From assembly GCA_001822815.1 (NCBI GenBank), contig MHSR01000008.1, positions 1 to 33,870 of the forward strand: a stretch of DNA of 33,870 nucleotides. The letters run 5' to 3'. Each line of letters starts with the position of its first letter. Position 1 is the first letter of the stretch. The notes under the pieces are model-generated. The model worked only from the letters and a program-made list of their open reading frames with translations. It did no database searches and was not told the DNA's origin. Below are positions 2,784 to 11,669 of the stretch, in pieces. The translations under genes and the position numbers were made by a program. Source of the DNA: Candidatus Terrybacteria bacterium RIFCSPHIGHO2_01_FULL_43_35. Lineage in GTDB: Bacteria; Patescibacteriota; Minisyncoccia; Terrybacterales; GWB1-40-14.

Positions 2784-3094
2784 TTTACCCAGCCCCAGTT
2801 TTGTATCTTTTTTATGTGGATAGTATATATTATTCAGCATGATGTTTCTAAAAATCTATATATTGGTTTTACGAGTGATTTGAAAAGAAGGCTGCTCCAA
2901 CATAATGCCAAAACAACCAAATCCACCAAAAGGAAAATAGGCATGTGGCATATAATTTATGCTGAAGCTTATCGTAGTAGGTCAGATGCCGTTGAACGCG
3001 AAAAGCGATTAAAAAGCCATGGAAGCGCAAAATTCAATTTATATAAACGCATAGCAGGCAGCCTTCTTTAGATACAAAACTGGAGCTGGGTAAA
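2784..3094. mobile_element. GIY-YIG ORF flanked by 24-bp inverted repeats (candidate mobile unit)
   Basis: Bases 2784-2807 and 3071-3094 are inverted repeats matching at 23 of 24 positions. The left starts TTTACCCAGCCCCAG and the right ends TGGAGCTGGGTAAA. They enclose one small GIY-YIG gene with almost no spare sequence. The left repeat starts directly after the stop of the 2106 gene, and the right repeat ends one base before the ATG of the 3096 gene. The single mismatch turns GGGG into GGAG in the right arm, giving the downstream gene a Shine-Dalgarno-like sequence 10 nt before its ATG. No target-site duplication is obvious. Alternatively the repeats could be a transcript hairpin kept for regulation. 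Confidence 0.65.
2814..3071 (+). CDS. Small GIY-YIG nuclease-domain protein
   Basis: The 85 residues are essentially one GIY-YIG domain of the UvrC N-terminal/UPF0213 type. The first strand WIVYII and second strand LYIGFT hold the two tyrosines, SDLKRRLLQH holds the catalytic-arginine region, and the glutamate of DAVEREKRLKSH is the probable metal ligand. Stand-alone domains of this size are common in bacteria, and their substrates are mostly unknown; the fold cuts one DNA strand. The residues needed for catalysis appear intact. The gene is basic (many Lys/Arg) and is enclosed by 24-bp inverted repeats that separate it cleanly from two otherwise adjacent paralogous genes, suggesting arrival as a unit. 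Its stop codon overlaps the right repeat by one base. Confidence 0.92.
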   Translation: MWIVYIIQHDVSKNLYIGFTSDLKRRLLQHNAKTTKSTKRKIGMWHIIYAEAYRSRSDAVEREKRLKSHGSAKFNLYKRIAGSLL

Positions 3095-8300: not shown

Positions 8301-8832
8301 TATTTCTTCTTCCGAAGTTTACTACTACAAAGTTTTCAGTATTGACTATGCCGGAAACATGTCTTCGCCCGCCGCTGTTTCGTTCGGCGTCTCCTCTACG
8401 CAGTCGCAGAGCCCACCCGAAGGTCAAGTTTCGCCGGAGTCAAGCGGTGTAGCGGACGGGGATTTAATAAGAGCTCTAAACACGGTTGAGGTTTATGTCA
8501 CTAAAAAAATCGGCGCCACGGTCATAGTAAGGCATATTGTTAACCCGCGCATCTTTGATGTTTACGGCCACTTTGGCGGTAGCGCGGCCTGGAATAAAAT
8601 TGTGCCTGTTGAGAGCTTGGGCAATGCTCGCATTTCAGCATGGGTGCGTGGTTCAGATGGCCGCGTATGGGAAGTTAACGGCGACGCCACCCGTCATTGG
8701 ATGAATATGACTTGGCAGCAATTTGCGTCTCGCGTTGCCGCGGGCGACTCGGCTCTTGCCACCAGTCTTATTTTTGAAGTTAACGATAATGAATTGGCGC
8801 TTTATGCGGTAAGTTCAGACGTGCGTCCATAA
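5368..8832 (+). CDS. Secreted delta-60-repeat beta-propeller surface protein
   Basis: The protein is 1154 aa. Residues 1-38 are a signal peptide (LYQLSVGIFLPEVAYA). Residues ~88-495 hold seven ~57-residue delta-60 repeats, each starting LDTxWDxDGI and ending LRYNSNG with LYVGG/IYAVG in the middle; seven blades suggest a closed beta-propeller. Residues ~495-735 are an acidic Gly/Asp/Thr-rich beta region that I cannot assign. Residues ~810-910 resemble the ZU5-like module also seen in the 20463 protein (both end HLTRFALV). A fibronectin type III domain follows at ~913-1005. The last ~120 residues (GDLIRALNTVEVY...WEVNGDATRHW) match the C-terminus of the 9606 protein. No LPXTG or membrane anchor follows, so the shared tail may hold it on the surface. 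Likely an adhesin or structural surface protein. Confidence 0.85.
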   Translation: MKKITIHSNKYTALSIAMLVLLYQLSVGIFLPEVAYASSPVFVNNGTADSGLITPGSTNVVGLNITLPPLDADTFLDSDGTAATVAGTLDSAWDTDGIQTFNSSGTYSDVPNAVAFDSVNNKLYVGGYQDTNGTGIDALILRYNANGSLDSTWDGDGKVIYNYSSGEFTDVKALAWDSANNKLYAAARLGTNVTDFAVFRFNSDGSLDTTWGSTGVVTYNSGSASNYDIPHAILLDAATGKVYVAGEYDGSTSNIDMLILRYNSNGTLDTTWDSDGIVTYNSGTSYDIAYALAFDSVDSDLYVGGRGPLEDATVLRYNSNGALDTGWDTDGIKVYDSGGGNYDQIYALVYDATNTDLYAAGGQQTNGYDGFVLRYNSNGALDTGWDTDGIQTYNSGGTQNDIFQAIQRDSVSGKIYAVGWQATNDADFVVNRYTSAGALDTTWDADGIQTYDAAGTPFDSDLAYAAVLDTTNRRFYVVGQQNTNGIDFGVLRYFTHNDGAPSAITNGDTLVAIGANTLCGDTDGTTAPTKIRTDANTDCATIDGSVVLGEDTTGTTFNLGASTSQVLFRDSVSVNGTWDSGEDIYFDADDSLLYNADTVDAITVRNLGSAVDATDIYIVKWWVDNGDGQFSSATDAIVDSLCPWDSANDWECGDNTSLSYAGSPGTTSRIYITYDLTGSSTATTGQTIQLQVAAFSDSGTAGAFNSGDTGIFFSNAGTANTGNHDGPTAVITNDSTRTIGSASSSSSPTQNGVPIVGGVPLEPLVTNTETETITDETGGSVTETAANDGSSATVSVEEGTTSGDAVFTVATYVASEVFTQNPLPSGLDIGGKAVYDITATVGGQSLDTFVKPLTLTFAYQENNLSAGVSENDLRLAVFGETESNWYVLEDAVVDVATNTVTYQSNHLTRFALVRPADSSPPAQPANVSVAAISNGVRISWQNPALDFHHARILRAASATETGSLLATNLIGTSYDDTSISSSEVYYYKVFSIDYAGNMSSPAAVSFGVSSTQSQSPPEGQVSPESSGVADGDLIRALNTVEVYVTKKIGATVIVRHIVNPRIFDVYGHFGGSAAWNKIVPVESLGNARISAWVRGSDGRVWEVNGDATRHWMNMTWQQFASRVAAGDSALATSLIFEVNDNELALYAVSSDVRP

Positions 8833-8850
8833 TTCACATTGCGGAAGTTG

Positions 8851-8923
8851 ACCCCGTTAGAGACCACGCCCGCGCTTGCGCGCCCAAAGGGCCTGCGGGG
8901 CGGGCTGTCTCTAACGGGGTTGA
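8851..8923. repeat. CCCCGTTAGA palindrome (copy 1), possible terminator
   Basis: ACCCCGTTAGAGAC (8851-8864) and GTCTCTAACGGGGT (8907-8920) are perfect inverted repeats around a GC-rich centre (CGCCCGC...GCGGGGCG). It can end transcription of the preceding gene, although no T-run follows. The end of the right arm supplies the first base of the next promoter's -35 box. Related CCCCGTT/AACGGGG palindromes occur at 26686 and 31418. Confidence 0.7.
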
Positions 8924-8947
8924 CAAAATTCATGGGCTTGCTATACT
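8920..8947 (+). promoter_or_regulatory. Strong sigma-70-type promoter
   Basis: TTGACA (8920-8925), a 16-bp spacer, and TATACT (8942-8947) preceded by TGC (extended -10). This is the best promoter match in the window, and no ORF of useful length follows, which is why I read the downstream segment as an RNA gene. Confidence 0.8.
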
Positions 8948-8953
8948 GTACTT

Positions 8954-9022
8954 AGAGTGAGTGTTCCCGTGAGGGGACCCTTCTAGGTAGGCGAAAGACC
9001 TTGGGGTTTTCCAAGGTTTTTT
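8954..9022 (+). ncRNA. Candidate ~70-nt small RNA
   Basis: A predicted start ~7 nt after the -10 leads into a hairpin GTTCCC-GTGA-GGGGAC (8963-8978, GNRA-type loop), a short linker, and an intrinsic terminator ACCTTGG-N6-CCAAGGT followed by six Ts (8998-9022). AGGT at 8985-8988 could pair with ACCT at 8998-9001, competing with the terminator stem, so conditional termination is possible. No start codon and reading frame of note lie inside. I could not match it to SRP RNA, 6S, tmRNA, RNase P or a common riboswitch. The promoter and terminator are seen directly; the gene call is inference. Confidence 0.6.
8998..9022 (+). terminator. Intrinsic terminator of the small RNA
   Basis: A 7-bp stem (ACCTTGG/CCAAGGT), a 6-nt loop and TTTTTT directly after the stem. 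Confidence 0.8.
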
Positions 9023-9124
9023 GCTATTTATACTTATGGTTTTCTTCTACTTTTCCTTTCCTATCTTGTTTCCTCCCTATCCATCTCGTCTCCTTCTCTT
9101 CTTGCTATCCCCCTATCTATCTTC
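9023..9124 (+). other. Pyrimidine-rich tract (possible untranslated RNA)
   Basis: From about 9040 to 9124 the + strand is overwhelmingly C and T, with only scattered A and G. It includes TTTCCTCCCT, which contains the anti-Shine-Dalgarno core CCTCC, and repeated TCTCCTTC/CTATC words. There is no ORF. It lies between two intrinsic terminators, so read-through of the first would give a longer RNA (~210 nt) with an unstructured C/U-rich body. Composition is seen directly; an RNA role is speculative. Confidence 0.5.
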
Positions 9125-9163
9125 TCTCAATTCCTAGTTTTTAACTAGGAATTGAGATTTTTT
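9125..9163 (+). terminator. Perfect 15-bp intrinsic terminator
   Basis: TCTCAATTCCTAGTT (9125-9139), loop TTT, and the exact complement (9143-9157) followed by six Ts. On the opposite strand no T-run follows, so it acts on + strand transcripts. Confidence 0.85.
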
Positions 9164-9257
9164 GTGAATATTTTTGTGTATAGTCGTCTATTGGTTTTTA
9201 TTAATCATTACTTTGCTATATTATAATTTGATGCTTTTCGCTTTGAGATTTTAGCTA

Positions 9258-9327
9258 TATAATGATTGTGCCGGAAGGGCAGGCACTCACTTAATACCTA
9301 GTATTGGAGTCAAACCCCCTTCCGGCA
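9258..9327 (+). promoter_or_regulatory. -10 box followed directly by an 11-bp hairpin
   Basis: TATAAT at 9258-9263 (poor -35) is followed at 9269 by TGCCGGAAGGG, whose perfect complement CCCTTCCGGCA lies at 9317-9327, leaving a 37-nt loop. Transcription would start at the base of the stem. No T-run follows. It may be a structured 5' leader, a small RNA, or simply another palindromic repeat. Confidence 0.4.
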
Positions 9328-9329
9328 TC

Positions 9330-9585
9330 GTTGGAATTTCCAAGCACCAAGAAACAAGATGCAAACAAAGTCCAAATGTCAAAATCCAAAGTTCAATTCA
9401 AGTTTAAAATCCCAAGTTCAAAATTTGGCATTGAAGTACTTGGATTTGAATTGATATTTGACCCATTCGATTCCGCTCAGGATCATCCCGAGTAGAGTCG
9501 AAGGATGAGCTTTGTCATTTGAGCTTTCGCTTATTGTAATTTGTCTGGTGATTGTAACTTGTATCTTGGTTATTAAAATTACACA
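9330..9585. repeat. Dispersed intergenic repeat (CCAAG/CAAA words plus TTCGA...CTCAGGAT palindrome)
   Basis: The left part is made of CCAAGCACCAAG, AAACAAGATG and GTCCAAATGTC words, and the right part carries loosely complementary TTTGTCATTTG, GTAATTTGTC and GTATCTTGG words. In the centre TTCGATTCCGCTCAGGAT (9466-9483) pairs imperfectly (14 of 18) with the complement of 9485-9502. From general knowledge, repeats with these words are scattered between genes in many CPR and other environmental genomes. The ORF listed at 9304-9495 is a by-product of this repeat. The remaining bases up to 9605 are A/T-rich and show no gene. Confidence 0.6.
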
Positions 9586-9605
9586 GGATAGGTTTTATAT
9601 ATAAT

Positions 9606-11669
9606 ATGTTGAAGTGGCCCAAGATAATTCTGTTATTGTCCCCACTGATTATTTGTGGGGTTGTTTTTTATGCCGACAATGCTCGCGCCACGGTTTTGGG
9701 TGAGGTTTACGGTCCGCCATCTGACCTAAGTCCCATTTTTACACCAACGCATGTTTATCCGGTGAGCTGGGCCGCGGCAGTAGGTGACACGGTTAATTTC
9801 AATGTTGACAAGTCTTTTGATTTTCTGGGCCGCGCGCAGCTCCAGGCCACACTTAAAATTACCAGCGCCAAAGCTTATTTATATGTTGAGGACGCATATT
9901 TTTCTTCCTTAAGCATTCAGGCCCAGAGTGATTTTTTAGCCGGTCTGCAAAATTTGGCTAATGAATTTGACAACAATATATATCCGAAAGAAACCGCGTT
10001 TTTTGGGCTTCCTTGGGAACCGGGCATAGATAACGATTCACATATTACCATTCTTGTTTCGCATCTGGCTGGAAATTTTGGCGGATATTTCCGCACCGAC
10101 GATGAATATCCGCGTAGTCAAGTTGCAACAAGCAACGAGCGCGAGATGGTTTTTATCAATGCCGTCAATATAACTAATGCGGCCAGCTCCAACTCGGTCA
10201 GAAATTTTCTAGCCCACGAATTCCAGCACTTAATTAGTTTTTATCAGAAGACTAAATTGTTAAATTCAGATGATGATGTTTGGCTCAACGAATTGCGTTC
10301 AGAATACGCGCCTACAGTTGCTGGCTTCAACGATGTTTGGTCCGGTTCATACCTGCAGTCTAGAGTCGGTTCTTTCTTAACCAATCCTTCAGACAGCCTT
10401 AATGAATGGAAGAATGCTACGGCTGATTACGCGGCTATAAATGTTTTTGCGCATTATTTAGCCGATCAATATGGCTCAAGTATTATTAGCAAATCTCTTC
10501 AGCGGCCGGAGCGGGGTATTGTCAGTATTGATGCCACCCTTGCAGATATGGGCTTGTCAGATAAGTTCGGCGATATTTTCTTGAATTGGGAAATAGCCAA
10601 TTATATAAATTCCCCCACAGCTGGGACGCGCTATACTTATAAGAATCCCAATTTAACTTTTAAACTTATCGCACCCTCCAATATTTATACCGTTGACGGT
10701 TCCTTGAATTTCAATGTCGTGGGCAGTATAAAGGACTGGGCCGGCAGGTGGGATAGGATAAATTCAAGTACTAAAAGTCTTAAAATAAGTTTCTCCCCTT
10801 CTGTATCCAGCTATATTTTTAAAGTCGCTTCAATAATTGTTAACAAGAACGAAACCTACGAGGTGCGCAATATGTCTTTATTCGGAAGCCAAGCAGAAGT
10901 TATTGTAAATGGCATGGGTACTACGGTTGATCATGTTATATTTGTGCCGGCAAGCGAAACCAAAACATCTGATTTTGGTAATAATGAACCAACGCGTAGC
11001 TTTAATTTGTCTATGGCTACAGTAGAGCCGGCAAATTTTTCTGTTAATTCCGTTTCGCCAAGTGTCGTTTATGCCGGTGGAGGAGCCATAATTTCTGTTT
11101 CTGGAAGCAATTTCGTCAGCGGCATGACCGTCAGTGTTAACGGAATATCGGTTGCCGCGACTTTAGTCAGCAGTTCAACTATTAACTTTGTCATGCCTCA
11201 AGTTGTGGTCGGAAATGTTTGTTTGTTGTTTGCTAGTCCAGGAAGCGCGTCTATACAAAATTGTTCTCTGTTGAGAGTAGTCAGCTACGCCGAAGGCTCT
11301 CTTATCCGCGCAAGGGGGGATTATAAAGTTTGGATAGTCAAGAGCGGTTGGCGAAGACATATCGTTAATTCTGAAATATTCAGTTTTTATCCGCATCTCG
11401 GATTTACCGACGTAATAGATGTGGACCAGTCGGAACTTGACGCCTTCAAATTAAGCGCGTGGGTCAGGGTGCCACTAACACAAGATTCTTTGACTTGGCG
11501 AGTTTATGAAGTGAACGATGATGCAACAAAACATTGGATAACCTGCGCCGACCCAAACAATTGCGCCGCAAACTGGCTTGCTCATGGTGGTAATCCAGAT
11601 GGCATTTATACCATAAATCAATCCGAGATGAATTATTATTCCGAAGGACCAAAAGTTTTTCTGCAGTAA
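9606..11669 (+). CDS. Secreted HEFQH (M30/hyicolysin-like) metallopeptidase with TIG domain
   Basis: The protein is 687 aa with a signal peptide at 1-29 (LLSPLIICGVVFYADNARA). The zinc site is complete for a gluzincin: AHEFQHLISF with H204, E205 and H208, and ~20 residues later WLNELRSEYAP, giving the third ligand E229. This spacing and the NExxSE motif resemble peptidase family M30 (hyicolysin). Residues ~477-560 form an IPT/TIG immunoglobulin-like domain (VNSVSPSVVYAGGGAIISVSG). The final ~125 residues (GSLIRARGDYKVW...YEVNDDATKHW) are homologous to the tail of the 5368 protein. TATAAT abuts the ATG at 9600-9605, so if it is a -10 the message would start at or inside the ATG. Predicted to act at the cell surface on proteins; the substrate is unknown. 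Confidence 0.85.
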   Translation: MLKWPKIILLLSPLIICGVVFYADNARATVLGEVYGPPSDLSPIFTPTHVYPVSWAAAVGDTVNFNVDKSFDFLGRAQLQATLKITSAKAYLYVEDAYFSSLSIQAQSDFLAGLQNLANEFDNNIYPKETAFFGLPWEPGIDNDSHITILVSHLAGNFGGYFRTDDEYPRSQVATSNEREMVFINAVNITNAASSNSVRNFLAHEFQHLISFYQKTKLLNSDDDVWLNELRSEYAPTVAGFNDVWSGSYLQSRVGSFLTNPSDSLNEWKNATADYAAINVFAHYLADQYGSSIISKSLQRPERGIVSIDATLADMGLSDKFGDIFLNWEIANYINSPTAGTRYTYKNPNLTFKLIAPSNIYTVDGSLNFNVVGSIKDWAGRWDRINSSTKSLKISFSPSVSSYIFKVASIIVNKNETYEVRNMSLFGSQAEVIVNGMGTTVDHVIFVPASETKTSDFGNNEPTRSFNLSMATVEPANFSVNSVSPSVVYAGGGAIISVSGSNFVSGMTVSVNGISVAATLVSSSTINFVMPQVVVGNVCLLFASPGSASIQNCSLLRVVSYAEGSLIRARGDYKVWIVKSGWRRHIVNSEIFSFYPHLGFTDVIDVDQSELDAFKLSAWVRVPLTQDSLTWRVYEVNDDATKHWITCADPNNCAANWLAHGGNPDGIYTINQSEMNYYSEGPKVFLQ

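Follow-up and report, generated by a model that had tools for sequence, protein, structure and literature searches.

Comparative evidence for two small non-coding RNAs predicted to recognise each other through two intermolecular helices in a class of Patescibacteria

Two short structured elements, designated RNA A and RNA B, occur some 300 nucleotides apart in the window, i.e., the whole stretch of 33,870 nucleotides analysed here from the 827-kb genome of Candidatus Terrybacteria bacterium RIFCSPHIGHO2_01_FULL_43_35. Genome comparison confirms the prediction that A is a small non-coding RNA gene equipped with a promoter and a terminator, and shows its conservation among ultra-small, Parcubacteria-type bacteria of many families; the recognition of A and B by two intermolecular helices is well supported by covariation. 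A and B would thus represent a dedicated pair of small RNAs, the likeliest outcome of which, with a probability of about one half, would be the regulation of B by A, B often being the leader of the next gene. Few base-pairing RNA pairs can be traced by covariation over dozens of families, and A/B is one of them; the comparison of genomes thereby supports a specific interaction between two RNAs in the candidate phyla radiation, a bacterial group about whose RNAs almost nothing is known. The two new RNA families now possess covariance models, and their single-copy syntenic genes render them testable in cultured members as well as in metatranscriptomes. The initial annotation of this DNA dealt with A; B was absent from it. 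The coordinates of all features are collected in Table 1.

Table 1. Features of the A/B locus, in window positions.
Feature	Position	Strand	Basis
RNA A promoter, TTGACA-16-TATACT with TG extension	8920..8947	+	11/12 consensus; kept before A in relatives
RNA A (putative, about 72 nt), in which a hairpin follows each of segments 1 and 2, the second hairpin being the terminator	8954..9025	+	covariance-model homologues, covariation
A segment 1, GUGAGUG, complementary to B CACUCAC	8957..8963	+	matching variants of helix 1
A hairpin, GUUCCC-GUGA-GGGGAC, between both segments	8963..8978	+	covariation in the stem; variable sequence and loop
A segment 2, CUAGGUA, complementary to B UACCUAG	8983..8989	+	covariation of helix 2
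A terminator stem, first U-run inside the stem	8990..9025	+	folding, covariation
B -10 box TATAAT (likely)	9258..9263	+	seen directly
RNA B hairpin: closing stem, internal loop, ACUC:GAGU stem, apical loop	9269..9327	+	covariance model R3
B CACUCAC, pairing with A 8957-8963	9284..9290	+	helix 1
B UACCUAG, pairing with A 8983-8989	9295..9301	+	helix 2
B GGAGU, paired internally with ACUC (9285-9288); would be freed on A binding	9306..9310	+	covariation
Gene after B, secreted peptidase-like protein	9606..11669	+	order with murB (11794), hpf (13195) and secA (15352) conserved in relatives

The promoter of A, previously proposed as the strongest of the window, is indeed the sole sigma-70 site scoring at least 11/12 in the 33.9 kb, where eleven sites of 10/12 also occur. 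Its -35 box (8920-8925) and its -10 box (8942-8947) are separated by a spacer ending in TTGC, which makes an extended -10. An RNA of about 70 nt ending at 9022 had been announced; the length of 72 nt and the terminator agree with this, but the end is better placed near 9025, because the first U-run is part of the terminator stem. The RNA folds at -33.5 kcal/mol (z = -4.1) and no ORF of note overlaps it. A belongs to no known RNA class, and the initial annotation could not match it to one either: Rfam 15 gives no match above the gathering threshold in the window, and more permissive scans return nothing relevant at E<=10 for 8820-9620 or at E<=0.5 for 11 homologous loci.

A direct search recovered two further copies of A, one with 92% identity from a member of the same genus and the other from another family. 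A first covariance model built from these 3 sequences (R1) yielded about 20 convincing copies among 286 genomes of the class, the weak matches L057, L058, L060, L061, L063 and L064, devoid of both promoter and segment 1, being excluded; a pattern match in G023 falls inside a penicillin-binding-protein gene and was discarded as due to chance. With the rebuilt model, A is found in 75 of 272 class genomes, in one copy each with one exception, the short calibration of these models leaving their E-values rough. Across the class, A is organised as GUGAGUG-hairpin-(C)UAUGUC-terminator, and both the variable hairpin and the terminator hairpin occur in all copies. The initial annotation had held that an absence of conserved structure or of compensatory changes among relatives would argue against a small-RNA gene. 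The models built from homologous regions do reveal a conserved structure, in which 95.4% of the stem cells are paired and 15 of the 16 pairs display changes on both sides. The hairpin with a GNRA loop is present in the window as described, whereas its loop is not conserved among relatives. The best sigma-70 site upstream of A reaches at least 10/12 in 57% of the loci, as compared to 1% in shuffled sequences.

RNA B was first met in the sister genome, as an element downstream of A that is 81% identical to positions 9269-9327 of the window, and of the 272 class genomes scanned with the covariance model R3, 88 have a single copy of it. It consists of a long stem with an apex reading CACUCAC-nnAA-GACAUAG-..GGAGU. 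In the stems of B, 98.2% of the cells are paired, 13 of 14 pairs are changed on both sides and the covariation score amounts to 0.777, against 0.194 in shuffles. The ACUC-GGAGU helix inside B also covaries (ACCC/GGGU, AUUC/GAAU, GCUC/GAGC), and replacement of the ACUC core by ACCC is accompanied by that of GGAGU by GGGGU, a correspondence predicted by an internal ACUC-GGAGU pairing of unbound B. The unpaired AA and nAAnC of B are conserved as well, and pairing with A leaves both unexplained. Many B copies are preceded, 10-40 nt upstream, by a TATAAT-like element, and 47% of the upstream regions contain a sigma-70 site of at least 9/12 (11% in shuffles); both A and B are presumably transcribed. 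A role of B as terminator or attenuator of the next gene was rejected, a U-run following the stem in some genomes only (L119, L131). Two elaborated forms of B were encountered. Members of family f28 (L128, L136, L138, L140) possess nested B modules forming rods of two or three tiers; in these, the loop of an outer B-like element is occupied by a long palindrome, whose apex bears a further complete B. In L047/L086, the two A-binding segments of a second copy of B are separated by an additional hairpin (CCCCGTAGTAGA..TCACTACGGGG).

A and B occur together in 58 of the 272 genomes, where 24 would be expected by chance. Usually, B is located 85-300 nt from A (centre to centre), downstream on the same strand. 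It lies on the opposite strand in about 16 loci, this turned-round orientation being that of most of family f28 and of part of families f37, f55 and f77; in most such loci, the turned-round B points at the terminator of A, and no gene follows it. Among 333 genomes searched across the phylum, the 8 matches obtained were restricted to this class, and viral contigs gave none; the pair thus appears confined to the class at the sensitivity used. Named genomes with the B motif belong to Giovannonibacteria, Tagabacteria, Gribaldobacteria and other Patescibacteria, all of which we take to be placed in the GTDB class Paceibacteria. A literature search found no description of A or B, although absence there is no proof.

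In the window, GUGAGUG and CUAGGUA of A are complementary to CACUCAC and UACCUAG of B, respectively, and in a third genome both sides of the second helix have changed together (AUGAUGUA with UACAUUGU). Both RNAs were present in 66 loci, of which L140, with a bare terminator as its A match, was left out of the pairing tests, leaving 65. For helix 2, native partners display 86.7% of paired cells and 104 double changes, against 65.2% and 40 for shuffled partners. The native covariation score is 0.511; shuffled partners have a score of 0.15 and reach at most 0.233. The helix-2 segment was anchored by hand in 14 of the 65 loci, and partner shuffling lessens the effect of shared ancestry without fully removing it, but changes on both sides over 26 families would be hard to obtain otherwise. 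Slid registers bring the covariation score down to 0.06-0.15, and the result is the same with one genome for each of the 26 families. An alignment-free test, independent of the anchoring, compared the region of A behind the hairpin with the loop of B: own partners pair with a mean of -10.7 kcal/mol and non-cognate ones with -5.5 kcal/mol, while 20,000 permutations of partners gave a lowest mean of -6.8 kcal/mol, none near the native value (z = -19.3). Weak helix-2 pairings also exist, e.g., in family f33 (-2.6 kcal/mol).

Helix 1 is nearly invariant, with 99.5% of cells paired in native partners against a mean of 98.1% and a maximum of 99.0% in shuffled ones, and its rare variants match each other: GUGGGUG/CACCCAC, UUGGGUG/CACCCAA and AUGAGUG/CACUCAU. 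Family f5 provides an independent test. There the models found A and missed B, and a B hairpin could be read behind A with helix 1 changed on both sides: CAACCCACUU of this hairpin can form ten pairs with AAGUGGGUUG of A, and in G035 a match of CAAUCCACUU to AAGUGGAU is found on the opposite strand. Covariation of helix 1 is strong in this family. Covarying intermolecular helices, the mark of a small RNA with a base-pairing partner RNA, are found for A, f5 included, and suggest that A has a dedicated partner RNA. RNAcofold predicted no heterodimer of A and B, the proposed complex being a crossing structure beyond what this program can represent.

Cell-wall and ribosome-hibernation genes recur in the vicinity of the pair, murB occurring at 50 and hpf at 43 of the A/B loci, and secA at 40. 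Among 71 loci, the gene starting within 150 nt after B is murB in 21, hpf in 3, a peptidase gene of the window type in 3 and another gene in 16, a variation which led to the rejection of B as the leader of one particular gene. B occurs at most 150 nt upstream of a murB, hpf or peptidase gene in 27 of these 71 loci, also when A is more than 800 nt away, and it remains with the murB cluster in loci where A and B are far apart (L073, L102, L113, L136, L138). A start codon or a Shine-Dalgarno sequence of the next gene is located in the base of the B stem in L084, L091, L110, L142 and L144.

According to the preferred reading, A would be a constitutive small RNA produced from its near-consensus promoter and B would be its receptor. 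Depending on the lineage, B would either open the transcript of the gene downstream, as in many of them, this gene being murB, hpf or one inserted ahead of these, or be a free-standing partner where it is turned round. In the free state, the second segment of B would be exposed in a loop and that of A would be single-stranded; contact would be made there, and CACUCAC would then be exchanged onto GUGAGUG by strand exchange of the hairpin. As ACUC and GGAGU are paired with each other in unbound B, the arrival of A would open its apex; where A carries ACUCC behind its hairpin (e.g., L106, L122), GGAGU could also pair with A. The B stem, helix 1, the A hairpin and helix 2 would associate into a four-way junction and, since A and B present the two intermolecular helices in an identical order, the far ends of these arms would have to be tied by the nnAA conserved in B. 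Both this geometry and the regulatory outcome are inferred; the reading as a whole draws on the co-occurrence of A and B, their cognate specificity, the proximity of B to murB, hpf or the peptidase gene, and the translation signals in the base of the B stem. Against regulation of B by A stands the pairing of A with the apex of B only, which would leave the basal stem closed. Moreover, the variable gene after B and the turned-round copies heading no gene argue against a cis leader as the general role of B.

Two other readings are serious rivals. A and B could constitute the two subunits of a single RNA particle, an obligate heterodimer held together by a four-way junction and exerting a core function in the neighbourhood of cell-wall and ribosome-hibernation genes; the complex itself would do the work, perhaps with a protein bound at the conserved nnAA, and the neighbouring genes would be incidental. 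Such a particle, which may be likened to U4/U6 or to two-piece tmRNA, is possible if doubtful. It would account for a pair conserved over at least 26 families in one copy each, for the conserved unpaired AA and nAAnC left unexplained by the pairing with A, for the turning round of B without loss of pairing and for the lack of conservation of the gene behind B. However, B keeps close to murB even after A leaves, and no obviously fitting function is missing from the genomes: tmRNA is present, and the lack of any 6S RNA over the cut-off in 18 relatives, including G000, was obtained with a model that is weak outside model bacteria. If true, the particle would be a bipartite bacterial housekeeping RNA of Paceibacteria, of a type undescribed before and categorically new.

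The initial annotation had also suggested that A may be a switch, an AGGU/ACCU pairing competing with the terminator and controlling read-through into the next segment; A would then be a riboswitch-like attenuator. These four nucleotides can indeed pair in the window, but a 4-nt complementarity of this segment with the terminator arm is kept in only 2 of 65 relatives (0.8 in shuffled sequences), the AGGU lies within segment 2 and covaries with UACCUAG of B instead, and B may be located on the other strand, all of which makes an attenuator very improbable. The second serious rival, somewhat less likely than the particle, is that B is a sponge or antagonist, titrating an A that would act on other mRNAs through GUGAGUG and segment 2. 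The promoter of A is stronger than that of B, A resembles a trans-acting small RNA with a 5' seed, and the rods of family f28 carry two or three nested A-binding modules, in line with a sponge; sponges are, however, usually less conserved than A/B. A neighbouring pair of such logic is known in Campylobacter jejuni, namely CJnc190/CJnc180 (PMC8687705).

CJnc190 and CJnc180 are cis-encoded antisense small RNAs that originate from one locus and pair with each other; one acts as an antagonist of its partner, and one depends on its partner for processing by RNase III (PMC8687705). A and B resemble them as two small RNAs from one locus with mutual pairing and differ by being non-overlapping and by using two short segments in the same 5'-3' order; no sequence relation was detected between the two systems. 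Since mutually binding RNA pairs are already known (PMC8687705), the kind of system represented by A/B is not categorically new. The raiA motif RNA or ModT (RF03072), with eight helices and two pseudoknots, occurs in Bacillota and Actinomycetota (PMC11706538). It is likewise a conserved structured RNA and is named after raiA (hpf), a gene also found near A/B, but its Rfam model gives no match at the A/B locus. The tigRNAs of TIGR systems bear two short guide segments per small RNA, and the paper describing them mentions Patescibacteria; they derive from arrays of 36-nt units with box C/D motifs, their spacers address opposite DNA strands and they work with a Tas protein (PMC12045711). An identity of A with a tigRNA was dismissed, both segments of A pairing with the same strand of B and A occurring in one copy per genome; no 36-nt arrays, box C/D motifs or Tas protein were seen with A/B.

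In CopA/CopT and RNAI/RNAII of plasmids, a strongly promoted small RNA binds a structured leader via hairpins and strand exchange, and CopA, the exact antisense of CopT, forms a four-way junction with it. In A/B, only two segments of 7-15 nt pair, they follow a permuted order, and two distinct chromosomal genes encode the RNAs; a cis-antisense pair of the CopA/CopT type was discarded on account of these separate genes and of the lack of continuous antisense complementarity. The A/B locus is not the tmRNA locus either, the tmRNA of the genome being located elsewhere (G000:C13:56360-56745). A weak 6S RNA match of 33.4 bits, below the cut-off, occurs at G011:C147:5604-5752, 6S RNA being otherwise undetected in the class.

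The surroundings of A contain additional structures. A long inverted repeat occupies positions 8847-8924 of the window (stem of -61 kcal/mol, z = -8.9), the -35 box of A forming the end of its right arm (CGGGGTTGACA). A repeat of the same design and of other sequence, with the same GTTGACCCCG/CGGGGTTGAC ends, is present in the sister genome. Between A and B, positions 9125-9157 form a terminator-like hairpin of 15 pairs (TCTCAATTCCTAG..CTAGGAATTGAGA) followed by T6. Small ORFs resembling GIY-YIG nucleases by eye occur in the sister genome (L032:8230-8480) and in the window (2814-3071); that of L032, just upstream of A, is flanked by two TTGACCCCGCACCTAT repeats and perhaps belongs to a mobile element.

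The sister genome also harbours, twice, a strongly promoted small RNA immediately preceding a tRNA-Asp-like gene (L032:8838-9030 and L161, G001:C15:16906-17118), which is not found in the genome of the window. It is organised as an arm, a hairpin CGAAACC..GGTTTCTG, another arm and a terminator, and looks, from its sequence, like a second RNA-pair system built on the plan of A/B. Both arms are complementary to the anticodon-arm region of the tRNA (ACTTGATAGGTAGC/GCTACCTATCAAGT; GTTGACAGACAGC/GCTGTCTGTCAAC), and where one copy departs from the other, the change on one side is matched by a change on the opposite side.
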